DNA of 64,000 nt from Parasaccharibacter apium (lineage in GTDB: Bacteria; Pseudomonadota; Alphaproteobacteria; Acetobacterales; Acetobacteraceae). This document shows positions 9,964 to 37,127 of the stretch, in pieces. Under the pieces are notes generated by a model. That model saw nothing but the letters and a program-made list of their open reading frames with translations, was not told the DNA's origin and did no database searches. The DNA lies in NCBI RefSeq assembly GCF_002592045.1, contig NZ_MEJG01000002.1, positions 310,001-374,000 of the forward strand, given 5' to 3'. Within the stretch, counting starts at the first letter, position 1. Every line of letters begins with the position of its first letter. A program made the translations under genes and the position numbers.

Positions 9964-10725
9964 GTGAGCTCCCCCCTTATCGTGCTACCACAAAGCAAAC
10001 GCATATCCCTCTTACAGGAAGCCCTTGCCCTGATACAGCATCTCTCCTCCTTTCTAGAACATCTGCCCCCCCTTTATGCGTATCTAGCACTCGGTGGCAT
10101 TATTTTACTGGAAAGCACGGGCGTCCCCCTCCCGGCGGAGAGCTTGCTCATCTTTGCTTCCCTTTATGCTTCCCATACCCATCACCTCACGCCGGAAAAC
10201 CTCATCATCGCGGCCATTAGCGGGGCTGTTATCGGCGATAATATCGGCTATCTGATTGGCTATCAGCTCGGTTATCGCTTGATGGAAAAGCACGGCCATA
10301 AAGTCGGCCTGCATTATGACCGCATCGTCTTAGGCCGGTATCTCTTTCGCCGTTATGGGGGGATTGGTGTGTTGGTCGGGCGGTTTGTGGCCTTCCTGCG
10401 TATTCTCATTGCCCTTTTAGCAGGGGCCTCACGCATGCCGTGGCATAGCTTTACCTTCTATAACGCCTTGGGGGGCACCCTTTGGGGGGTGTGTTATGTC
10501 CTCATCCCCTATGAGCTTGGTAGCCAGATTGATAGCTTCACCGGCCCGGTCGGACTTGGTTTTGCCGCCTTTATGCTGAGCCTACTTGTCGGCTCCTTCT
10601 TCCTCCTCCGCCATCATGAAAAGACCCTCATCCGCAGGGCTCTTATTGATGAAAAACGCCTCAAGACCAAAAAATCACGCAAACGCCCGCAACGCCCTTC
10701 TTTGCGAAAGGAGTCCACAAAATGA
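9964..10725 (+). CDS. DedA family membrane protein
   Basis: A 253-residue integral membrane protein of the DedA/SNARE-associated family (PF09335). Diagnostic stretches are ESTGVPLPAESLL, the GDNIGYLIGY segment, and the FVAFLRILIALLAGASRM block containing the conserved Arg. DedA proteins act as lipid flippases or scramblases and support envelope homeostasis. The C-terminal 30 residues are strongly basic. The likely start is GTG at 9964, without a strong ribosome site. Its stop shares four bases with the start of the following DUF805 gene, so the two are co-translated. Confidence 0.9.
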   Translation: MSSPLIVLPQSKRISLLQEALALIQHLSSFLEHLPPLYAYLALGGIILLESTGVPLPAESLLIFASLYASHTHHLTPENLIIAAISGAVIGDNIGYLIGYQLGYRLMEKHGHKVGLHYDRIVLGRYLFRRYGGIGVLVGRFVAFLRILIALLAGASRMPWHSFTFYNALGGTLWGVCYVLIPYELGSQIDSFTGPVGLGFAAFMLSLLVGSFFLLRHHEKTLIRRALIDEKRLKTKKSRKRPQRPSLRKESTK

Positions 10726-11147
10726 CAGTGCAATCCCTAGTTTCCCTCTTTAAGAGCAGCCTGAACCATTATTGCACATATCCACTGAATATCCGCAAAC
10801 GGACAACACGTGCTGAATATTGGCCTTGCTTTATAGCAGGCTTCACATTACTTTGTACGTTATTGGTTTTATGTTTTATTTTCTCTCAGCTTTATATCCG
10901 CTATGATAGCGGAATATGCCTTTTATTAGGGCTTATCATTTATTTTGCCCTACTGACTAGCGGGGCTGTCATCACCATCCCCACCATCACCGCCCTCATC
11001 CGCCGCCTGCATGATACAGGCCGCTCCGGCTGGTGGCTGTGCATCAGCTTTACCATCATCGGCTATATCCCGTTAATCATCTTCCTCTGCCAAAAAAGCC
11101 AACCAACCGCTAATCGCTACGGCCCCGTCCCAAAGCAGCGGAAGTAA
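10722..11147 (+). CDS. DUF805 family membrane protein (copy 1)
   Basis: A 141-residue protein of the DUF805 family: an N-terminal RTTRAEYW motif, three to four membrane helices, the conserved IRRLHDTGRSGWW motif, and a C-terminal short polar tail with RYGP. The function of DUF805 proteins is unknown. It overlaps the dedA stop by four bases. A second DUF805 gene lies at 12293, separated by the FRG-domain gene; the two share the motif order but are diverged, so they are not a recent direct repeat. Confidence 0.88.
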   Translation: MTVQSLVSLFKSSLNHYCTYPLNIRKRTTRAEYWPCFIAGFTLLCTLLVLCFIFSQLYIRYDSGICLLLGLIIYFALLTSGAVITIPTITALIRRLHDTGRSGWWLCISFTIIGYIPLIIFLCQKSQPTANRYGPVPKQRK

Positions 11148-11182
11148 AGCACCTTACTGATTATAATGTTACGGAATAACTT

Positions 11183-12184
11183 ATGTCACATACAGACCAA
11201 CCAGAAGATACCTCCAATAACCCAACCGAAGTAAAAGAATATTGGATACAAGAGCTTCTCGATAACGCCGATAAAGCTCCAGAAGATATTCATCTCTCTG
11301 ATTACATGAAGGTATTGGAAGAGTTACCAAAGAGATTTCTCCCCCCTATACCAAATCCTTCTGCCTTTTTCCGTGGGCAGGCTAATAAAAAATGGCAACC
11401 AATCCCCAGTATATTTAGAGACAAAAAAATCTTTTCTGAAGACAAACTTATCAATGAAATTCTTTCTAGCCAAGCGGATGAGTTTCGCTATGATAAAACA
11501 ACTTTTGAAAAACTCGTCCGTATGCAACATTTCGGCATACCCACCCGGTTGCTTGATATTACACGCAATCCTCTAGTAGCCCTTTATTTTGCAGTAAATA
11601 CATCGACAGCCGAGGATTGTGCAATTTTTATGTATTTCGTGCCATCAAAAAATCTTTTTGATCCCCAAAAAGAGTATATCAATTATACTCACAGTATAAA
11701 AACATCTATCCTATCGGAAATAGCTTCTCTATCAGCCGACGACAAGAACCGCTTAGCTTTCTTTTTTGATAGGAGCGATCATAATTTAACATTAATGAAA
11801 CAGCCACAAGAAAATCATCGTAAAGATGATATATTAGAGTATATCTTCAAAAGAATTGGACTCAAAGATAATGTTTCTGACACAGACATACATCAATCAT
11901 TGCTTTGTAAAAATATTATTGTCATTCCTCTAAACACCAATAAAAGACTCATCTCCCAACAAGGAGCGTTCATTTTATTCGGAGGCTTTTCCACAGGAGA
12001 ACACTCTGTCAGTATCCAACAACTAATCCCCCTCGGTATGCAACTCATAAAAATCATCATTCCCGCTAACGCAAAGAAAAATCTTCGTAAAGAACTCGAT
12101 TTTATCGGGATTAACGGCATGACCTTATTCCCCGACCTCGAAAATGCGGCAAGCTATATTAAGGAGAAGTACGACCGCCCCTAA
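11183..12184 (+). CDS. FRG domain-containing protein
   Basis: A 333-residue protein with the FRG domain signature: FFRGQANKKW near residue 61 and MQHFGIPTRLLDITRNPLVALYFA around residues 114-137. No membrane segment or signal peptide is visible. The biochemical role of FRG domains is unsettled; FRG proteins are often found in phage-defence and other accessory loci. Base composition is clearly more AT-rich than the neighbours and codon use differs (many AAA, ATA and TTA), which suggests horizontal transfer. It sits between two DUF805 genes on the same strand. It starts at ATG 11183 with a modest upstream GGA. Confidence 0.85.
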   Translation: MSHTDQPEDTSNNPTEVKEYWIQELLDNADKAPEDIHLSDYMKVLEELPKRFLPPIPNPSAFFRGQANKKWQPIPSIFRDKKIFSEDKLINEILSSQADEFRYDKTTFEKLVRMQHFGIPTRLLDITRNPLVALYFAVNTSTAEDCAIFMYFVPSKNLFDPQKEYINYTHSIKTSILSEIASLSADDKNRLAFFFDRSDHNLTLMKQPQENHRKDDILEYIFKRIGLKDNVSDTDIHQSLLCKNIIVIPLNTNKRLISQQGAFILFGGFSTGEHSVSIQQLIPLGMQLIKIIIPANAKKNLRKELDFIGINGMTLFPDLENAASYIKEKYDRP

Positions 12185-12292
12185 AACACGGCGGCCCCAT
12201 GCCGATAAATAGCCATTGCATCACATTAACACTGTCTTTACAGTTTTGGGCCATTAAAGGGAAGAAGCCCTCTCCCTTGCTCATTTTCGAGG

Positions 12293-12769
12293 ATGATGAT
12301 GACTAATATAGTCAAGAAAAGATCGTTCTTTTCACAAAGTCTGCATAATGTCTTTAGCAACTATGCTAACTTTACAGGACGTGCAACACGTGGGGACTTC
12401 TGGTTTCTATGCCTCTTTACGTTCCTTCTTAAATTATTTTGCGTTTCTATTATGATAATAATTGCACTTCATTTTAATGGAATACTTAAAATCTTATCCA
12501 TCACACAGTCAATAGATGCTAGATTAGGAGCTGATTTTATTATTACACTATCCCTCTATGTGTACTTTGTCTTTCTCTTCTATATTCTCCTCTTCTCCCT
12601 TACGCTTCCTATCGTTACTACAAGCGTAAGGCGGCTGCATGATGTAGGCCGATCTGGTTGGTGGTTGCTGCTGGCCCTTACGGTTGTTGGGGCTATTCCG
12701 CTCTTTATTTTCTTCTGCTTAAAAAGCCAACCCCACGATAATGACTACGGCCCGGCCCCGTTAGCCTAA
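12293..12769 (+). CDS. DUF805 family membrane protein (copy 2)
   Basis: A 158-residue DUF805 protein with FTGRATRGDFWF at the N-terminal side, several hydrophobic helices, VRRLHDVGRSGWW, and the C-terminal DYGPAP. Like the FRG gene its 5' half is AT-rich. Three successive ATG codons (12293, 12296, 12299) make the start ambiguous; the ribosome site CGAGG lies very close to the first, so the third may be used. Function unknown. Confidence 0.87.
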   Translation: MMMTNIVKKRSFFSQSLHNVFSNYANFTGRATRGDFWFLCLFTFLLKLFCVSIMIIIALHFNGILKILSITQSIDARLGADFIITLSLYVYFVFLFYILLFSLTLPIVTTSVRRLHDVGRSGWWLLLALTVVGAIPLFIFFCLKSQPHDNDYGPAPLA

Positions 12770-12775
12770 CAGCAC

Positions 12776-12804
12776 AATAGGGGGAGGCTTCCCTTCCCCC
12801 TATT
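12776..12804. terminator. Stem-loop between converging DUF805 and hemJ genes
   Basis: AATAGGGGG (12776-12784) pairs with CCCCCTATT (12796-12804), and the inner AGG/CCT pairing is extended across one bulged base. It lies between the DUF805 stop and overlaps the hemJ stop codon, so it can end transcription from both sides. Confidence 0.6.
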
Positions 12805-13249
12805 AAGGCCGCACCACAATCATAATCACAATCACAATCATCAAAATGGTGGGGACTTCATTAGCGATGCGGTAAAACCGCTCGCGATGGTGGTTGTGCC
12901 CTTCGGCAAAGCCGCGCCGCCATACCGCACAAGCCCCATGGAAAGCGAACATCCCAAAGAGGCAGACTATCTTCACCCACCACCATAAAGCCGACCAATC
13001 CACCACACCGGGGAGGGAGGCCATCAAGGCCCCGGTAAAAAACGTCACCACCATCGCAGGGGCCATAATCTGACGTTGCAGACGCCGTTCCATCAGGCAA
13101 AAGCGCGCATATTCTTCAGAGTTCGGGGTCATTTGCGTGTGGTAAACAAATAAACGCGGCAAATAAAACAGCCCTGCCATCCATGAGACAAACGCCATAA
13201 TATGCAGTGCGACAAACCAGCTAAGATGTGTCAGTAAAAATAGCTGCAT
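12803..13249 (-). CDS. hemJ: Protoporphyrinogen IX oxidase HemJ
   Basis: Inner-membrane enzyme for the penultimate step of haem synthesis, oxidation of protoporphyrinogen IX to protoporphyrin IX. About 148 residues with four membrane helices. The HemJ signature is clear: conserved His in ALHIMAFVSWMAGLFYLPRLFVYH, and the C-terminal RIANEVPTILMI. It follows a HAD phosphatase gene and hemE on the same strand, so two haem genes are clustered. The frame opens at GTG 13255, but ATG 13249 has a better spaced GGAGGGG ribosome site. Confidence 0.93.
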   Translation of the reverse strand: MQLFLLTHLSWFVALHIMAFVSWMAGLFYLPRLFVYHTQMTPNSEEYARFCLMERRLQRQIMAPAMVVTFFTGALMASLPGVVDWSALWWWVKIVCLFGMFAFHGACAVWRRGFAEGHNHHRERFYRIANEVPTILMIVIVIMIVVRP

Positions 13250-13969: not shown

Positions 13970-15034
13970 TTAGACGCTCCTTATTGTCTCAACTAATGTA
14001 GCAACATGCTCTGGCGGTGTGGTTTTTATCACCCCATGGCCCAGATTAAACACATGTGGCCGCCCTTTTAGACTATCACGAATACGGCGCGCTTCTTCCT
14101 GCAACGCCTCACCACCATTTAGCAAAATCATGGGGTCGAGATTACCTTGTAAGGTCACACTTGGAGGGACCATCTCCGCCACTTTGGCCATATCGGCCAC
14201 CGTGTCTAACGCTAAGGTGTTAATGCCCGTTTTCTCGGCATATTCCGTAACCATAACACCCCCAAGGCGGGGGAAACCAATCAACGGAACATCGGGATAA
14301 CGTGCGCGAATATGGGCAACAATCTGCTTTGTTGGCTCAATCACATAACGGCGGAAAGCCTCTGGTGGGAGAATCCCCGCCCATGAATCAAACAACATGA
14401 CCGCTTCCGCCCCGGCCTCAATCTGCCCACAGAGCATCTCCGCCGTGCTGCGGGTCAGCATCGCCATAAGCTTATCAAACAAAGCCGGGTTCTGCTGCAT
14501 CATCGCCCGAATATGGGCAAAATCACGAGAGCTACCACCCTCCACCATATAACACGCCACCGTAAAGGGGCTGCCCGCAAAACCGAGCAAGGTTATCTCT
14601 GCTGGCAACTCCACCCGCAAGCGGCGCAACGCCTCCCGCACAGGGGATACAGCCTCCATCACGCGGCCTTCATCCAGCCGAGCGAGGTCAGCTTCATCAC
14701 GGATGGGCGTCATGACGGGGCCGCGCCCTTCCTCAAAGCGGAGGTCCTGCCCCATCGCCCAAGGGAGGATAAGAATATCGGAGAATAAAATCGCCCCATC
14801 CATCCCATAACGGCGGATGGGTTGTATGGTCAGCTCGACAGCAATCTCCGGCGTCATACAGCGTGTGAGAAAATCCGCCTGCTCCCGCATCGCGCGAAAC
14901 TCCGGCAAATATCGCCCCGCTTGGCGCATCAGCCATACAGGCGGGGGCCATACAGCCTCCCCCTTTAACGCGCGCAAAAGCGGTTTGTGGCGTATTGTCT
15001 GCGTCGCTAGGCTTCCACTTTGCTGCTGCGTCAT
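13970..15034 (-). CDS. hemE: Uroporphyrinogen decarboxylase
   Basis: Cytosolic enzyme that removes four carboxyl groups from uroporphyrinogen III to give coproporphyrinogen III. 354 residues, the normal length. Visible signatures are PVWLMRQAGRYLPEFR near the N-terminus (first UROD signature, with the conserved Arg), the catalytic Asp in LFSDIL, GFAGSPFTVACYM (second signature) and the C-terminal NLGHGVIKTTPPE. First gene of a minus-strand operon with the HAD phosphatase and hemJ. An AGGA ribosome site lies 8 bases upstream. In Caulobacter hemE borders the origin; here a better origin candidate lies 21 kb away. Confidence 0.97.
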   Translation of the reverse strand: MTQQQSGSLATQTIRHKPLLRALKGEAVWPPPVWLMRQAGRYLPEFRAMREQADFLTRCMTPEIAVELTIQPIRRYGMDGAILFSDILILPWAMGQDLRFEEGRGPVMTPIRDEADLARLDEGRVMEAVSPVREALRRLRVELPAEITLLGFAGSPFTVACYMVEGGSSRDFAHIRAMMQQNPALFDKLMAMLTRSTAEMLCGQIEAGAEAVMLFDSWAGILPPEAFRRYVIEPTKQIVAHIRARYPDVPLIGFPRLGGVMVTEYAEKTGINTLALDTVADMAKVAEMVPPSVTLQGNLDPMILLNGGEALQEEARRIRDSLKGRPHVFNLGHGVIKTTPPEHVATLVETIRSV

Positions 15035-15187
15035 GCTGCTTATCCTGCTCTCATATCCTAATATGTTGCTTATCCTTGCCTTGGAGAGGCGGCAAGCGTC
15101 AACTCTGGAATAACCGGACTTTCCTTAAAGCAACGCTTATAAGGCTATGATATTATAACCCCACATCCCCCAACCAAAGGTACCTTT

Positions 15188-15778
15188 ATGCTCATCCTTG
15201 CCAGTGGTTCCGCCATACGCCGCCAACTCCTCCAAGAGGCGGGCGTGCCTATAACCACACATCCCGTTGCGGTGGATGAGGACGCCCTACGTCATCACGC
15301 CGAACAGGAAGGGCTTTCCCTCCGCGAGACAGCCCTCACCCTCGCCCGTGCCAAAGCCCGCGCGGCAAGCTCTGCCTTCCCTCATCGCTACATCCTCGCA
15401 GCAGACCAGCTTTTAGACCTAGAGGGCACAGCCTTTGCCAAAGCCCGCACAATGGAGGAAGCCCGCTCCCATCTCCTCACCCTTCGGGGCAAAACCCACG
15501 CCCTCCATACCGCTTTAACCCTATGGAAAGACGGACAAGAATCGTGGGCGCATAGCGAAAGCCCCCGCTTGACCATGCGGTCTTTCTCCCCCGCCTTTTT
15601 GGACGCTTACCTCCATAAAGAAGGCACCGCCTTATTAGCCTGTGTTGGCTGTTATCGGATTGAAGGAATGGGGATTCAGCTCTTTCATCTCATTGAGGGA
15701 GGGCATGATGCCATTGCAGGCTTACCATTACTGCCCCTTCTCCATGCCCTGCGGGAGCGCAGTATCCTGCCCTCATAA
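15188..15778 (+). CDS. maf: Maf family nucleotide pyrophosphatase
   Basis: A 196-residue Maf/YhdE/YceF protein that hydrolyses non-canonical or unmodified NTPs to the monophosphate. It has the N-terminal ASGSAIRRQLL motif, the DEDALRH segment, ILAADQLL with the catalytic Asp, and the central LRGKTHALHTA motif. The C-terminal IEGGHDAIAGLPLLPLL also fits the family. It is divergent from hemE over about 150 bases, an arrangement common near the chromosome origin of alphaproteobacteria. The ribosome site is AAAGG 7 bases upstream. Confidence 0.92.
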   Translation: MLILASGSAIRRQLLQEAGVPITTHPVAVDEDALRHHAEQEGLSLRETALTLARAKARAASSAFPHRYILAADQLLDLEGTAFAKARTMEEARSHLLTLRGKTHALHTALTLWKDGQESWAHSESPRLTMRSFSPAFLDAYLHKEGTALLACVGCYRIEGMGIQLFHLIEGGHDAIAGLPLLPLLHALRERSILPS

Positions 15779-21848: not shown

Positions 21849-23297
21849 TTAAATAAGGTTATGCTTACATAGCAGAGTGACCACTTGCTCCTGCACGGCT
21901 TCGTATGATTGCCGTGCATCAATCACCTCTAGCTGAGCATGATTAAAGGTAATCTGGGGCATCAAGGCCGATTTTGCCTGCATAGCCTCTTTGTCATGGT
22001 CTGGCTTACGCTGGAAGGCCGTCTCCGCATCCACGTCCAGTAAAATCACAAGGTCCGGCTTAAATTGTGCAATTTTGCGATAAAGCCCACGTTCCAACCA
22101 TGCGAGGAGCCGAATAAAGGGATTATGGCTATATGCGGTGGAAAGACCCGGCCCATCACATTGATGGCCGGAAATCTCTGCTTGAGGGTACCGGTCCGTT
22201 ACCACGAAGAACCCAGCTTCCACCGCCCGCTTTACCCGCAAAAACCGCCGATACCGAATCACAGAGAAGGTAAACATCACAATCGCAGTTAGCATACCGG
22301 GGATTTTCTCCCCCTTTGTGCGCGCTTTTTTAGCCTTGCTATTCAGCTTCTTCTCCACAGCAGGGCCAATAAGTGGCAAACGACCAATCCGGCGGCCTAA
22401 ATCCCCAGAGCCTAAACCAAGATAGCCATAGCGCATTGGTTTTTCAGCAGCGAAATGCTCCACCAAATATTCACTAATGCTCGATTTGCCAGAGCCATCA
22501 CACCCTACCAAAGCCACCAATATGCCTGCCCGCTGGCCATTCTTATGACCTGACTTGCTTACTGGTAACGTAGCGGGAGCAGGGTAGAGGGCGAGCACCT
22601 TCCGCACAGTCTCCTTCGCTTGGGTGAGTACCTCTGCCAAAGGGGCGGTGGCATCAATATCCACAATCGGCGCCCCAGCAAACTCAACTTGGCTCACATC
22701 CTCAATCTTACGCGCAAGCTTATAAGGCACATGGTTCGGTTTGCGCTGCAATGCTGTAGCCAAATCCACATTTAAGCGAATCACCACATCAGGGCGAAAA
22801 CGCGCCATACGACTATAAAGCGCGCGCTCTATCTTGCTAAATAAGCGCATCCCCATGCCATCCCGGTTCAATGCCGCGAGGGAAGGGCCATCCATAGGGC
22901 CGGGAACGACATTTTGTGGGTAACGGTCTGTCAAAATCGCCAAGCCACGCTCATGCTTAGCACGCATGGCCATAAAGCGTACAACACGCCGCATAGAGAA
23001 TATAAAACCAGAGATCGCCGCTAACACACCCGCTCGCTTGCCAGAGCGCGTTCTCGCAGTTTCCTTTTTAGATTTACCCCTTATATAAGGCCCAAGAAAG
23101 GGTATAGGCTCCAAAGCACGGCCCAAATTACCAGCTTGTTTGCCTAGATGACAAAAGGCCGTCGGCCGTTCTGCCTTTAGCTGCACCAGCAGAGTCGTCC
23201 CTACTGTGGATTTCCCACTTCCATCACACCCAACCAAGGCTATCACTGGCTGGTGCCGTCCCTCAATTGGCTGGGGCATGAACTCGCTTACACGCAT
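21849..23297 (-). CDS. Tandem thymidylate-kinase-like P-loop protein (two fused domains)
   Basis: About 482 residues from the ATG at 23297 (the frame is open to 23390). Two similar halves each carry the P-loop GCDGSGKS (around residues 23-31 and 265-273), an RSGKRAGVLAAI or TKGEKIPGMLTAI segment, a DRYPQ motif (124-128 and 368-372), and a LALQRKP or TAFQRKP segment with Arg typical of dTMP-kinase-like enzymes. The repeat unit is about 240 residues. A typical Tmk is about 210 residues and single. Proteins of this type occur with polysaccharide genes; the substrate is unknown. The start is uncertain between 23297 and 23279. Confidence 0.82.
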   Translation of the reverse strand: MRVSEFMPQPIEGRHQPVIALVGCDGSGKSTVGTTLLVQLKAERPTAFCHLGKQAGNLGRALEPIPFLGPYIRGKSKKETARTRSGKRAGVLAAISGFIFSMRRVVRFMAMRAKHERGLAILTDRYPQNVVPGPMDGPSLAALNRDGMGMRLFSKIERALYSRMARFRPDVVIRLNVDLATALQRKPNHVPYKLARKIEDVSQVEFAGAPIVDIDATAPLAEVLTQAKETVRKVLALYPAPATLPVSKSGHKNGQRAGILVALVGCDGSGKSSISEYLVEHFAAEKPMRYGYLGLGSGDLGRRIGRLPLIGPAVEKKLNSKAKKARTKGEKIPGMLTAIVMFTFSVIRYRRFLRVKRAVEAGFFVVTDRYPQAEISGHQCDGPGLSTAYSHNPFIRLLAWLERGLYRKIAQFKPDLVILLDVDAETAFQRKPDHDKEAMQAKSALMPQITFNHAQLEVIDARQSYEAVQEQVVTLLCKHNLI

Positions 23298-23514
23298 AGC
23301 ACTCTCATTGCTTTTGATGCTGCTATCATAGCCTGTCTTGCTCCTCCATAACAGGCTTATGATAAATATACCCGCACAAACTGCCCCCAACTACATATAC
23401 AATATATAATAAAGGGTTACACGCTTATAAACTTCACCTTTACTCTAACAGCTCGCCATACACAAAGTTTGAAGGGGCGTTTGGTAAAAGATCACACGCT
23501 CGTTATATCATCGC

Positions 23515-24064: not shown

Positions 24065-24958
24065 CTAACGTGTAAGATGCGCCATCAAGGCTTCAAATTG
24101 TTCTAATGAGGAATAATTGATCTTCAAAGAGCCACTTTTGCCATTAAACCGTATTTGCGTTTTCAGGCCAAAGCGGGCCGATAAATCCTCTTCCAACCGT
24201 GTAATCTCTGGGGCGGGGTGCGCTGTTTTAACCTCTGCCGACTCTGCCTTATTCAACCGCGCAACCATAGCTTCCGTCTGACGGACATTCAGCCCCCTAG
24301 ACAGCACCTCCGCCATGCCCGCTACAGGCTCAGGATGGCCTAATAAAGCCCGCGCATGGCCAGCACTTAAAGCCCCTTCGCGTAGTTGAACCAACACAGG
24401 CTCGGGCAAATTAAGCAAGCGCATTGTGTTTGTAATATGCGAGCGAGACTTCCCAATCGCCCCAGCAAGCTCCTCTTGAGTCAGGCTATAATCCTGCAAC
24501 AAACGCTGCAATCCCATAGCTTCTTCCACCGGGTTGAGGTCCGAGCGTTGGAGATTCTCCACCATGGCCGCGGCCATAGCATCGGTATCATCAAGCTGAC
24601 GGATATAAACGGGCACCTCATGCAGCCCCGCCTTTTGTGAGGCCCGCCAACGGCGTTCCCCCGCGATGATTTGATACCGCCCCTTATGCTCTGGGTCTGG
24701 TCGTACCAAAATAGGCTGAATCACCCCGCGTGAGCGAATGGAATCGGCAAGCTCAGCCAAATGCTCCTCATTCATATCCCGCCGCGGCTGAAACGGGCTA
24801 GGGGAGAGAAGGTCCACCCCCAAACTCCCCGGCTGAGATGGCGCGCGGGCCTCTGTTTGCGGGGCCCCCGCACGGGCTAAATTAGGGGCTTCATCCCCCA
24901 GTAATGCAGCAAGCCCGCGCCCTAACTTACGCGACGATGGTAATGCTTTTTTTGCCAT
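24065..24958 (-). CDS. parB: Chromosome partitioning protein ParB
   Basis: Centromere-binding CTPase that loads at parS and spreads to segregate the origin region. 297 residues. An N-terminal KLGRGLAALLG ParA-interaction motif is followed by the nuclease-like ParB/CTP domain (FQPRRDMNEEHLAELADSI, GERRWRASQKAGL), the helix-turn-helix (LTQEELAGAIGKSRSHITNTMRLL) and a C-terminal dimerisation region. It begins 5 bases after parA. Three parS-like sites occur in this window (26303, 44115, 46724). Confidence 0.97.
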   Translation of the reverse strand: MAKKALPSSRKLGRGLAALLGDEAPNLARAGAPQTEARAPSQPGSLGVDLLSPSPFQPRRDMNEEHLAELADSIRSRGVIQPILVRPDPEHKGRYQIIAGERRWRASQKAGLHEVPVYIRQLDDTDAMAAAMVENLQRSDLNPVEEAMGLQRLLQDYSLTQEELAGAIGKSRSHITNTMRLLNLPEPVLVQLREGALSAGHARALLGHPEPVAGMAEVLSRGLNVRQTEAMVARLNKAESAEVKTAHPAPEITRLEEDLSARFGLKTQIRFNGKSGSLKINYSSLEQFEALMAHLTR

Positions 24959-24963
24959 GACGC

Positions 24964-25755
24964 TCAGCCTTTCTTCTTCAACCGTTTTAGCAGCTCAGCT
25001 CCCAAAGCCTCATAAGCCTGCGCCCCGGTAGATGCGCGGGCATAATCCAACACAGGCTGGCCATGGCTTTGCGCCTCGGAAATACGAATATTGCGCGGGA
25101 TGACCGTCTTAAAAACTTGCTCGCCAAAAAAGCCGCGCGCATCTTCTGCCACAAGAGTGGAGAGATTATTACGCGTATCAAACATCGTCAGCACAATCCC
25201 TTCTAAATGAAGGTCCGCATTAAAAGCCAAACGCACACGCTCAATTGAGCGTACAAGCTGACTAATCCCCTCCAAAGCAAAGAACTCACATTGCAAAGGC
25301 ACTAACACACTTTGCGCCACAACAAGGGCGTTTAATGTCAGCAACCCAAGGCTTGGGGGGCAATCAATTAAGATAATATCGTAACGATGTAGTAATGGTT
25401 GTAGTGCATCCCGTAACCGATATTCCCGCCGGTCTTGGTCGATCATCTCCAGCTCGGCCCCAGCAAGGTCGGCATTTGCGGGCATGACATCCAGCTTTGG
25501 CACCACGCTTTTGCGAAGGAGCGTCTCTGCAGGCTCATCCTCCAACAAGGCACCATATGTGCCACGGCCACGCTCATCATACTCCAAACCAAGGCCTGTT
25601 GAGGCATTGCCTTGGGGATCGAGGTCCACCAACAAGACTCGCTTGCGCCGCGCAAGGGCAGCGGCCAAGTTCAGGCTGGTTGTTGTTTTGCCCACGCCAC
25701 CTTTTTGGTTGGCGATGGCGATAATATGCACAGTATGAGAGGAAGGCTTAGACAC
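24964..25755 (-). CDS. parA: Chromosome partitioning ATPase ParA
   Basis: DNA-binding ATPase that pulls ParB-parS complexes apart. The deviant Walker A motif is KGGVGKTT, Walker A' is [11 protein letters not shown], and Walker B is [11 protein letters not shown]. About 263 residues when started at GTG 25755 ([11 protein letters not shown]), which overlaps the rsmG stop by eight bases. An ATG at 25788 would add eleven residues and overlap rsmG more; it lacks a ribosome site. Operon with rsmG and parB. Confidence 0.96.
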
Positions 25756-26326
25756 GTCTAAAATCACTAATCTTGAGGAGGACCCCATCGGGGTCTGTAT
25801 GGCTAGGGAAGCTCTTATATAGCATGTGCCAGTCAGAGCGGGCTTTGGTCAACTCATCTGGCGTTTTTCTTCCCTTTAAAAACAAACAATAGCCATCCTC
25901 TTTTAACAAAGGCCGCGCCCACGTTAAAAGTTGGGGCAGGGGAGCAAGGGCGCGGGCGGTGATAATATCGGCAGGCTCTAGCACAGCTTGCTCGATCCGT
26001 TTTGCCAGCACACTAACACGCGCCCCACATTCCCGCGCGGCCTCGCGTAAAAAGGCGCATTTGCGTTGGTCAGACTCAATTAGCGTAACAGGATTACCCG
26101 TTGCTATAGCGACAATCAAACCGGGAAAGCCCCCGCCTGAGCCAAGGTCAGTTATCCTTACCCCTTCAGGCACATACGGCACAAGTTGGAGGCTATCTTC
26201 AATATGCCGCTGGCGAAGATGGGCAATATCTTTAGGGCTTACGAGGTTAATTTTCTCATTCCAGCGCGTTAAAAGCTGGGTGAAGTGAGCGAGCTTCGCT
26301 TCAGTTTCATGTGAAACATGCTGCAT
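25748..26326 (-). CDS. rsmG: 16S rRNA (guanine(527)-N7)-methyltransferase RsmG
   Basis: Methylates G527 of 16S rRNA using S-adenosylmethionine. 192 residues. Conserved segments: [20 protein letters not shown], the SAM motif [13 protein letters not shown], and [13 protein letters not shown]. The ATG shares one base with the mnmG stop (TAATG). A parS-like sequence is embedded in codons 3-8 (HVSHET). The mnmG-rsmG-parA-parB order is the classic origin-proximal arrangement. Confidence 0.95.
26303..26318. promoter_or_regulatory. parS-like centromere site inside rsmG
   Basis: AGTTTCATGTGAAACA matches 14 of 16 positions of the conserved bacterial parS sequence TGTTTCACGTGAAACA. It lies in the 5' end of rsmG, next to parAB, a common place for parS. 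Confidence 0.72.
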
Positions 26327-34530: not shown

Positions 34531-36075
34531 TTACACAACCTTTAGCAGCGCATCCGCTGTTCGTAAGGAAAGTGCCATAATGGTCAAAGCAGGATTAGCC
34601 GCCCCAGAGCTAGGGAAGGTAGAGTGATCGCTTATCCATAGATTCTCAATATCAAAACTACGGCCATAGGGATTAACCACCGCAGAGCCTGCATCTTTAC
34701 CCATACGGCATGTGCCAATCATATGGGCAGCACGGCTAATAACCCGTATATCCTTCGCCCCGATCGACTCCCACATCTTCACCATCAGACGGGTAGCATG
34801 GCGGTGCATGGCCTCCTCATTAGGGCCATAACTATAATCAATGCGCGGTTTTGGCAGGCCAAAAGCGTCTTTCTCCTCCGAGAGGGTTACGCGGTTTTCC
34901 TCCCGTGGGAGGCTCTCCCCGTGCATCCCAATACCGGCACTATAATTATAGGCGGCCAAAGTTTGGCTTAAAGCTTCACCACGCCGCCCATCAGCACGCA
35001 CAAGATTTGCCGCCCATGTCAGAGGCATCATACCGAGGGATTGTAGCAAATAGCCCCCCGCAAAATCCGCATCCTTAGGCCGGAGCATATCCTCAGTAAT
35101 CGTAAGGGATGGGTATCCTTTATTCGGCCGGATTTCCTCATCAAACACGCCCCACACTTGGGTGGAGACATGTGTCATGTAATTCCGCCCCACTTGGCCG
35201 GAGCTATTGGCCAGACCATTATGCAGTAATAAGCGAGCCGTCTCCACCGCCCCAGCGGCAAGAACAACAGCCTTACATTTTTGCCGTTCTTCTCGCCCAT
35301 CTTTTACATAAATGACAGCCGTAATCCGCCCCTGACTATCACGCTCAAAAGCTGTTGCCATACAGCCAGGACGCAACTCCGCCCCATGAGCGCAAGCTAG
35401 TGGCAGATAGGTATTATCAACACCTGATTTCGCCCCATTGCGGCAACCTTGATGGCAGGCCCCGCAATTAACACACCCTTCACGATGACCAAAATGAGGC
35501 TGCTCACGCCCTTGCGAAATCACAGCCACAGGCCCATCCGCATGGCGTAACCCTACATTATCGCACGCTTTCCGCATTTTAAGGGCTGCTGCATTAGGGG
35601 CCAAAGGAGGATAGGCATAATGGCGGCTTTCATCCCACGGATAATGCGCTGGGCCGCTGACCCCGATAAAACGTTCAACCTCCTCTATATAAGGTTGAAT
35701 CTCCTCAGCACCGAAGGGCCAATCAACCCCTTGGCCGGTCTCACTATGGAGATGAAACTCCCGCTTATCCATTCGTGGTAAAAATGCCCCGTAATGAAGC
35801 AAAGAGCCCCCAAGGCCCGTCCCGCTATTATTGCCACCAAAGGCTTGTGGGGTTTTCCCACCGGAGAGCCGCTCATGCAGCCAATAAAGCTCCTGCGCGG
35901 TTGGCTCATCAGGCGTATGGGACCGCGCTTGAAAAGCCGGTCCTGCTTCCAACGCTACGACCTTTCGCCCTGCTTGGGCCAGCCGCGCTATAAGAGGGGC
36001 ACCACCGGCCCCTGTACCGATAACAACAACATCAGCAATTTGTTGTGAAACATCATTCATCATGTTCTGCGTCAT
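34531..36075 (-). CDS. GMC family oxidoreductase, gluconate 2-dehydrogenase-like FAD subunit
   Basis: A 514-residue FAD enzyme (ATG 36075). The FAD motif VVVIGTGAGGAPLIARLAQAG is near the N-terminus, the GMC C-terminal domain contains HMIGTCRMG and SGAANPALTIMALSLR. Cys202, Cys205, Cys208 and Cys212 in CVNCGACHQGC resemble the iron-sulphur site of membrane sugar dehydrogenases. The substrate is probably a sugar acid or polyol. The matching small subunit gene is upstream at 36495 on the same strand, but 416 bases of origin-like DNA intervene. No cytochrome c subunit follows. No signal peptide is seen here; in this family the small subunit may carry the export signal. Confidence 0.85.
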   Translation of the reverse strand: MTQNMMNDVSQQIADVVVIGTGAGGAPLIARLAQAGRKVVALEAGPAFQARSHTPDEPTAQELYWLHERLSGGKTPQAFGGNNSGTGLGGSLLHYGAFLPRMDKREFHLHSETGQGVDWPFGAEEIQPYIEEVERFIGVSGPAHYPWDESRHYAYPPLAPNAAALKMRKACDNVGLRHADGPVAVISQGREQPHFGHREGCVNCGACHQGCRNGAKSGVDNTYLPLACAHGAELRPGCMATAFERDSQGRITAVIYVKDGREERQKCKAVVLAAGAVETARLLLHNGLANSSGQVGRNYMTHVSTQVWGVFDEEIRPNKGYPSLTITEDMLRPKDADFAGGYLLQSLGMMPLTWAANLVRADGRRGEALSQTLAAYNYSAGIGMHGESLPREENRVTLSEEKDAFGLPKPRIDYSYGPNEEAMHRHATRLMVKMWESIGAKDIRVISRAAHMIGTCRMGKDAGSAVVNPYGRSFDIENLWISDHSTFPSSGAANPALTIMALSLRTADALLKVV

Positions 36076-36094
36076 CAAACTATGTCCATCACCT

Positions 36095-36374
36095 TATGGA
36101 TAAAGTGGTTTAGGTTGGGGTACATGGGGATTGTACGGGCTTTTATGAGAGCGGTACCGAGTACTGGGGACGGTACTGTACCCCCTTATAAAAAGGGGAT
36201 TGTACACAGGCCCATTGTGGAAAAAGAAGGATAACATCCTAGAGGCCTTGAGTCTTCTTGCTCAGTGAAGTTGTACACAGTGTGAGTAAGCTGGGGTACA
36301 TTTTTAGAAAGCCGGGTACCCCAGTTTTCACAGGGTTTAACCACATCATCAATTTATAATTTTATAAATTAAAA
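36095..36374. other. Probable chromosomal replication origin (oriC)
   Basis: The whole gap 36076-36494 lacks genes. DnaA-box-like 9-mers: TATGGATAA (36095-36103), TGTGGAAAA (36216-36224, an exact TTWTNCACA on the minus strand), GTTTTCACA (36324-36332), TTAACCACA (36337-36345), and two copies of TTGTACACA (36200-36208, 36271-36279). Right beside them lies a perfect 20-bp all-AT palindrome (36351-36370) inside an AT-rich stretch, a likely unwinding element. Ten GTAC tetramers lie in 36120-36319. Gene orientation and plus-strand C/G richness change here. ParAB and three parS-like sites lie within 12 kb. No experiment is available, so this is inference from structure. Confidence 0.72.
36351..36370. 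repeat. 20-bp all-AT palindrome in the origin region
   Basis: AATTTATAA-TT-TTATAAATT is a perfect inverted repeat with no G or C. It lies six bases after the last DnaA-box-like sequence, as expected for a DNA unwinding element. Confidence 0.85.
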
Positions 36375-36494
36375 TGTTGTGTTGTCGGTCTTTCTTCTCA
36401 CGCACGCTATGATTTCACGTCATTTTCGCTTTAAAGATAAACCCTCTACAGATGGAACTTTTCTCTCACATATAGCCCTTTATCCCACCATGTT

Positions 36495-37127
36495 TTATGG
36501 ATGATTCCGATTCAAAAAACGGCGTTCATTTTCAGGTTCAAACGCTTCTTTTTGCTCTAAGCTATGAGCCGAAAATCCTTGTATTTCCTTATCTCCACCG
36601 GTCATATTGGCAGAAATACCAAGCTTATCTTGCGCTATAGGATGCGCCAGAAAAGACGATACAATCGCCGTGCGCATATCCCCACTCCACAAAGCCATCT
36701 GGGCAGGGGAAAAAGCAGCGGAAGAGCAAGCTGGTAATGTGCCTGCAAAAGCATCATCAAGCAGAGAACCACGATCTTCAGCCTTTAAGGCTGTATAAGA
36801 GGTGCTAAAAAGATGCTGAGCGTAATCATTAAGAGAGGCTAGGCCCATCTCCCAAGCTTTTAAGTCAGTTGGGAGGTCGGCAAAACGCCACCCATCACCC
36901 GGCCCGGCGAGGGTTTTATCAATCATAACAGCAAGGTTAAGACGAACATCACCAAGCAGAGAGCTTTGTGGCAAAATATCATCGCAAACTTGCTCTAAAC
37001 AATGAAAAGACGATGCAGAGAGATGCTCTCTCTTGCCTTGTTCATCCTCCATACGTTGTAACAGCGCAGAGCGCGTGCGGGCTGATATATGGTCTGATTG
37101 AAGGAAATCAGGGGGTGTGCGTGGCAT
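36495..37127 (-). CDS. Gluconate 2-dehydrogenase subunit 3 family protein
   Basis: A 210-residue protein. The segment LEQVCDDILPQSSLLGDVRLNLAVMIDKTLAG, followed by a helical region with LNDYAQHLFSTSYTALKAEDRGSLLDDAFAG, fits the Gluconate_2-dh3 family (small subunit of membrane GMC dehydrogenases). The usual N-terminal twin-arginine signal is not evident, and the C-terminal 50 residues (MTGGDKEIQGFSA onward) are polar and unusual. The expected partner is the GMC gene at 34531. An AGGA ribosome site lies 8 bases before the ATG. Confidence 0.68.
   Translation of the reverse strand: MPRTPPDFLQSDHISARTRSALLQRMEDEQGKREHLSASSFHCLEQVCDDILPQSSLLGDVRLNLAVMIDKTLAGPGDGWRFADLPTDLKAWEMGLASLNDYAQHLFSTSYTALKAEDRGSLLDDAFAGTLPACSSAAFSPAQMALWSGDMRTAIVSSFLAHPIAQDKLGISANMTGGDKEIQGFSAHSLEQKEAFEPENERRFLNRNHP

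Follow-up and report, generated by a model that had tools for sequence, protein, structure and literature searches.

Where does replication of this chromosome begin, and how would an origin come to lie 21 kb from hemE, the usual neighbour of an alphaproteobacterial origin? The stretch of DNA analysed here (the window, 64 kb) is part of contig C2 of a 1.85 Mb genome in 13 contigs (G000), and we treat this genome as that of a Bombella, a bee-associated acetic acid bacterium; its sucB protein is 99% identical to those of the nearest named loci, Bombella sp. ESL0385 and Bombella saccharophila. A sequence-only reading of the window had proposed a gene-free gap as a candidate chromosomal origin, and a GC-skew switch, a cluster of DnaA boxes and the conservation of non-coding DNA coincide there and support the proposal. 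On the strength of the skew change-point, a profile match and the counts of DnaA boxes and GTAC, the gap (36079-36494, plus strand) is very probably the chromosomal oriC. Sequence comparison further indicates that it carries a module which is normally beside hemE and has moved here, something that the sequence-only reading could not see. We propose with high confidence that the gap is the origin of the host chromosome and that its module was copied from the hemE side and took over, after which the old copy decayed.

The GMC-GDH3 gap and its surroundings

The gap measures 416 bp and is gene-free as claimed, its flanking genes being separated by no ORF that reaches 100 aa. To its left is a gene for a GMC oxidoreductase (34531-36078, minus strand; Pfam PF05199 and PF00732) and to its right a gene for a gluconate 2-dehydrogenase subunit 3-like protein (GDH3; 36495-37127, also on the minus strand; Pfam PF13618), followed on the right by sucB. 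The core of the conserved module described below, about 280 bp of non-coding DNA (approximately 36102-36378), lies inside this gap. The hemE gene (13970-15034, minus strand; PF01208) is in the neighbourhood as the sequence-only reading had it, about 21 kb from the gap, so that adjacency to hemE of the Caulobacter type is lacking. Between hemE and maf (15188-15778, plus strand; PF02545) there is a space of 153 bp (15035-15187) that we presume to be the vacated ancestral site of the origin.

The other neighbours named at the outset are present with some qualification. For parAB, parB (24065-24958, minus strand) matches TIGR00180 above its cut-off and stands, but its partner (24964-25788, minus strand) can be called parA-like only, as every match to ParA-type families falls below the curated cut-off. 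Three parS-like 16-mers are found, at 26303, 44115 and 46724, with 2, 2 and 1 mismatches respectively to the parS consensus. The strand bias of the genes is present but weak, with 18 of 32 genes on the minus strand to the left and 16 of 24 on the plus strand to the right in a list compiled by hand. Elsewhere in the window, GC content falls to 0.42-0.45 within 10001-13000, around a gene for an FRG-domain protein (11183-12184), and this low-GC segment may have been acquired. The 513-aa protein encoded at 21849-23390 has a thymidylate kinase match confined to its C-terminal end and weak AAA-type matches closer to the N-terminus.

A two-segment likelihood fit over the 64 kb places the change-point of the GC skew at 36699 (95% support 36080-37078; log-likelihood gain 323), in agreement within the window with the switch predicted at about 36.2 kb. 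The skew is -0.153 to the left of hemE-maf, -0.137 from hemE-maf to the gap and +0.133 to the right of the gap, so the description of the plus strand as C-rich on the left and G-rich on the right is borne out. The minus-to-plus switch at the gap is also seen on the same contig outside the window, where 15 sampled stretches of 5 kb are negative on the left (13 of 13) and positive on the right (two of two); the skew of the 13-contig host genome is read from the window together with about 125 kb of sampled sequence.

The gap is not adjacent to dnaA, the best Bac_DnaA match being on contig C5. Three stretches sampled along that contig (G000:C5:1-148083) have skews of +0.116, -0.020 and -0.120, with dnaA in the near-zero stretch. 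This order, from plus to minus, is the terminus-like sense and opposite to that of an origin, and an origin at dnaA is rejected.

Within the gap, six nine-mers lie within one mismatch of the DnaA-box consensus TTATNCACA, starting at 36095 (minus), 36200 (plus), 36216 (minus), 36271 (plus), 36281 (minus) and 36337 (plus). Every other 416-bp stretch of the window that was scanned has fewer (10-bp steps; mean 0.43), and none of 500 dinucleotide shuffles of the gap reaches it (shuffle mean 0.56), which confirms the earlier count of at least six boxes and marks the gap as an intergenic DnaA-box cluster; the one exact TTWTNCACA is at 36216 on the minus strand, again as first reported. Box 1 (36200-36208, plus strand) reads TTGTACACA and is invariant in an 18-sequence alignment of modules, and box 2 (36271-36279, plus strand), with the same sequence, follows 71 bp after it. 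The box scan gives TTTTCCACA at 36216-36224 on the minus strand, and both the scan and the alignment give the box-like TTACTCACA at 36281-36289, likewise on the minus strand and one base after box 2. The last conserved box position (36324-36332, plus strand), at which the window reads GTTTTCACA, has an invariant CACA in the alignment.

After this last box, the 40 bp at 36336-36375 are 87.5% AT, in line with the AT-rich stretch noticed earlier, and form a candidate unwinding element. The 20-bp all-AT palindrome noticed earlier is present at 36351-36370 as an inverted repeat, but it is not a perfect one because its arms are 9 bp long with a 2-nt centre. At this position two further Bombella loci (L040 and L185) have perfect 22-bp all-AT inverted repeats with other letters, and weaker ones (arms of 5-6 bp) are found there in five more. 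Such a repeat was not found beside the last box in the three loci of the Saccharibacter genus, and none with arms longer than 5 bp occurs in 16 hemE-site loci, three of which have 5-bp arms. The repeat may have been added to the unwinding region in Bombella. By analogy with known DnaA origins, DnaA would load on the two TTGTACACA boxes and on the inverted partner of each, the filament would grow toward the last CACA box and open the AT-rich stretch, and replication forks would depart both ways.

The module in the family and its change of place

The DNA of the gap has clear matches in relatives within the family, and a sequence profile matches 140 of 299 family genomes at E <=0.01. Strong matches (at least 84 bits) are found in 73 of the 299, the next best scoring 41.9 bits. 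The suggested comparison with related acetic acid bacteria is informative here, as the strong module lies beside hemE in 62 of the 73 and between GMC and GDH3 in the remaining 11, namely eight Bombella and three members of genus g101, which we call Saccharibacter since the match coordinates of G166 are those of G066, Saccharibacter sp. EH611. Positions come from the genome's own locus in 71 cases, from identical coordinates in locus L174 for G262 and from match coordinates only for G227, where the module is 80 bp from hemE; at four loci (L196, L229, L239 and L240) the motif pattern missed the module and the profile coordinates were used instead.

The hemE-site genomes include Gluconobacter aidae, Acetobacter thailandicus, A. 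cerevisiae, Komagataeibacter xylinus, K. melaceti and K. melomenusus. In most of them maf lies on the far side of the module; it was not found near the module in the groups G054/G139/G188 and G040/G130/G181/G222/G254/G284. Five more distant family members have weak matches in the order hemE, match, a space of about 1.2 kb and maf, which resembles the Caulobacter order. Two small genomes of genus g30, G029 and G124, have hemE and are not among the profile matches; upstream of hemE they carry two and four box-like nine-mers and one and no GTAC, respectively.

The 18-sequence alignment contains three motifs (A, B and C), the two TGTACAC boxes, a GGAT and the last CACA box. Motif A, TTGGGGTACATGGGGA (36115-36130, plus strand), has largely invariant columns and is followed by a further GTAC at 36133, and motif B, GGTACCGAGTACTGGGGA (36153-36170, plus strand), is mostly invariant or nearly so. 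In the conserved GGATAAC (36229-36235, plus strand) the GGA is invariant and the next T and A almost so. Motif C (36293-36322, plus strand) consists of GGGGTAC and then GGGTACCCC. When the 73 distinct modules are compared, both boxes and motif A are matched by pattern in 63, and among these box 2 follows box 1 at a spacing of 70-71 bp in 61, and motif C follows box 2 at 24 bp in all 63.

Local skew at the module in relatives is mixed. A minus-to-plus switch lies near the module in seven of 14 genomes tested (G032, which is a Bombella, G054, G022 with a weak signal, G040, G030, G013 and G009), and the expected local switch is absent in the other seven. Among the latter, G048 (L136) has a switch with a strong gain (50.7) 11 kb from its high-scoring module, possibly because of a further move or an error in the assembly; G025 has one about 1 kb from the module with the sign unchanged, and G037 one 7 kb away in the other sense. 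The local signal is weak in G042, G046 and G008, and G056 changes at the module, weakly and in the opposite sense. For G046, 20 stretches taken round the chromosome put the switch between 1.76 and 1.90 Mb, with the module at 1.836 Mb. A fifteenth genome, G058, without the motif pattern, switches about 3 kb from hemE.

From this comparison, the ancestral position of the module would be beside hemE. In a common ancestor of Bombella and Saccharibacter, a copy would have entered the space between two same-strand genes, GMC and GDH3, and taken over initiation, and the old copy would have decayed, leaving a remnant in Saccharibacter and nothing detectable in Bombella. The target is seen empty in Gluconobacter aidae, where rho, GMC, GDH3 and sucB have the same order as in the host, the space between GMC and GDH3 (about 57 bp between the matches) has no profile match, and the single module of the genome is beside hemE.

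What appears to be the decaying copy is found in all three g101 genomes, whose hemE-maf gaps each give the profile a further, weak match. Searched genome-wide, these matches have E values of 6.9e-5 (G166), 1.8e-6 (G109) and 1.2e-3 (G209), and in a search of 11 chosen loci the same matches score 22.0 bits (E 1.5e-6), 27.0 bits (4e-8) and 18.1 bits (2e-5) respectively. None of the three matched spans contains a GTAC, against four in the comparable span of the window and five in that of the new-site copy of one g101 genome. Each of these hemE-maf gaps has one GTAC, outside the matched span, and none has an exact TTGTACACA (the count for G209 covers the 350 bp beside hemE). In the 60 kb around both sites, all three genomes have their skew switch at the new site, with best points at distances of 0.14, 0.14 and 0.29 kb from the point taken for the module. 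Compared with the best point, the likelihood is lower by 4 to 6 log units at the module point itself and by 118-124 log units at the old site. Two Bombella genomes have a second weak match away from hemE-maf, G032 at its own module but on the opposite strand and G251 on another contig.

A remnant in Bombella is rejected, as the profile has no match in the hemE-maf gaps of seven other Bombella and blastn finds nothing better than chance in these or in the window's own; by profile search the window's genome has one module only. As the 21 kb between the old and the new site already have left-arm skew (-0.137), the move is not recent.

These data bear directly on the alternative that the origin is still at hemE-maf and that the gap is a decoy, for example a DnaA-titrating or regulatory sequence. 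Two papers speak in its favour, with hemE and gidA among the origin-neighbour genes listed by Ori-Finder (PMC2275245) and replication starting from near hemE in Hyphomonas neptunium by marker frequency (PMC6650430), as does the position of the module in the majority of relatives. However, the host has its single module elsewhere, its hemE-maf gap is only 153 bp and lies 21 kb inside the left, negative-skew arm, and in the Saccharibacter genus the old copy has decayed and loses by about 120 log units in three of three genomes. An origin at hemE-maf is rejected on this ground, and we consider that the decoy explanation can hardly be right.

If the gap is the origin, the module could have arrived by routes other than the copying that we favour. 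It is inverted relative to hemE and maf when compared with hemE-site genomes, which is what two nested inversions sharing an end would give; such inversions predict no second copy, yet the Saccharibacter genus has both the new and a decayed old copy, and no intermediate gene order is seen among the loci examined, so that we regard this route as unlikely. Horizontal transfer of the new-site copy from another acetic acid bacterium, rather than copying of the host lineage's own origin, seems to us slightly less likely again. A module of about 280 bp could well travel by recombination, but the new-site modules form one branch, whose neighbours are hemE-site modules from g61 and g70, with Gluconobacter close by (FastTree, about 250 columns, midpoint-rooted, read by branch order), and these are genera near by hemE identity, as descent within the lineage would predict, as far as so short an alignment can place them. 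Copying from the lineage's own hemE side remains our preferred reading.

The GTAC cluster and a possible modifying enzyme

The gap contains ten GTAC, a cluster that the sequence-only reading missed and whose members mostly occupy conserved positions. About 0.5 would be expected from the sampled genome density, dinucleotide shuffles of the gap have a mean of 1.9 and a maximum of 8 (n=2000), and the densest 416-bp stretch of the window outside the gap has three. General avoidance of this word is rejected as an explanation; GTAC has an observed/expected ratio of 0.81 in the host genome, which is not extreme, and avoidance therefore does not account for the cluster. Modules have 6 to 13 GTAC (median 11), counts that are somewhat biased because the selecting pattern itself requires two. 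A GTAC near the last CACA box is also found in 18 of 46 hemE-upstream regions of distant family members, and that part therefore looks old, with the multiplication of GTAC belonging to the acetic acid bacteria.

GATC is under-represented in the window and 20 sampled stretches of the host genome (observed/expected 0.32; at least 0.77 in the other genomes sampled). GANTC, the CcrM site, is crowded in the 300 bp to the left of hemE-site modules (1-5 against 0.2-0.7 expected at each of 12 loci, L134-L145), and the Bombella gap has only one.

We suggest that, in addition to DnaA, another origin factor either binds the conserved GTACs or modifies them. They could instead be no more than parts of strong and weak DnaA sites, with no second factor needed, and we give this simpler account a real, if minority, chance: two of the ten GTACs fall inside TTGTACACA boxes, and weak classes of DnaA site are described for Caulobacter Cori in PMC4468827. 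Against it, the flanks of the GTACs in motifs A, B and C are unlike a DnaA box, and the GTAC near the last box persists in the distant hemE-upstream regions mentioned above.

A candidate for a factor acting on GTAC is found among the methyltransferases. All ten Bombella genomes searched have at least two N6/N4 methyltransferase family matches, which fall into two score levels, and G251 has three in addition. Of those in the window's genome, the first is CcrM-like but scores below the NCBIfam cut-off for Caulobacter CcrM, and the second, located beside mltA-like and Smr-like genes by ORF reading, is an orphan enzyme with an SPPY motif (G000:C1:140073-140894) that is apparently vertically inherited. 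It is present in 73 of 73 strong-module genomes against 57 of 226 others, a contrast confounded by ancestry. Those relatives of the enzyme whose structures have been solved methylate cytosine-N4 or adenine, and CcrM is one of them. M.RsaI of Rhodobacter blasticus places m4C in GTAC, according to PMC6256690, and an alphaproteobacterial GTAC enzyme therefore exists.

The enzyme can be compared with GTAC in the 46 hemE-upstream regions from family members lacking a strong module, a non-random set of 40 picked among the hemE matches listed, partly for both classes, and six earlier loci. A GTAC followed within 4-14 bases by a T[TC]CACA box is found in 12 of 20 regions with the enzyme and 6 of 26 without it (p 0.016, kinship ignored), and the mean number of GTAC per 500 bp is 2.1 and 0.88 respectively (p 0.0006, again ignoring kinship). 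The association is weak, and the tie of the second methyltransferase gene to GTAC is one of co-occurrence in related genomes only.

A bolder proposal is that acetic acid bacteria use the cluster as a mark for origin control, in which the orphan enzyme would modify GTAC and the half-modified new origin would be held from re-firing, as a separately evolved analogue of GATC, Dam and SeqA; the moved origin would have carried the mark along and the abandoned copy would have lost it. The clustering of GTAC in the origin (ten in 416 bp) is what has been observed, from sequence, and we consider the proposal as a whole a long shot.

Meaning of the move and comparison with known origins

The way in which a bacterial origin changes its address can seldom be seen. 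In this case related genera show the old site, the empty target, the working copy and the decaying remnant, so that the change can be located on a tree and put to the test. From the remnant one also gets a hint of the bases that are retained only as long as an origin works, as both TTGTACACA boxes and nearly all GTACs have gone from it, and the loss of GTAC suggests that acetic acid bacteria may have a factor that reads GTAC. The profile, moreover, finds candidate origins across a family that is used industrially.

The origin of Escherichia coli has GATC sites, a palindromic tetramer. The module resembles it in that a palindromic tetramer is enriched at conserved positions inside the origin, and differs in that the tetramer is GTAC.

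Among the matches listed from the open-access literature, in which a search for hemE also retrieves heme, none maps the origin of Bombella or Saccharibacter or describes GTAC as an origin motif, and passages of PMC4806288 and PMC4686929 hold nothing on origin structure or methylated motifs. For Acetobacter pasteurianus 386B, an oriC predicted from skew is placed near dnaA in PMC3751514. Our candidate is likewise a skew-based origin in an acetic acid bacterium, but both named Acetobacter genomes, which are other strains than 386B, have the module beside hemE.

A close parallel is Cori of Caulobacter crescentus, a hemE-adjacent alphaproteobacterial origin, which the relatives of our host match in having the neighbourhood of hemE, module and maf. 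No CtrA site (TTAA-N7-TTAA) occurs in the gap within one mismatch. Whereas Cori has G-boxes, W-boxes and five CtrA sites according to PMC4468827, the module of our host lies 21 kb from hemE and is rich in GTAC.
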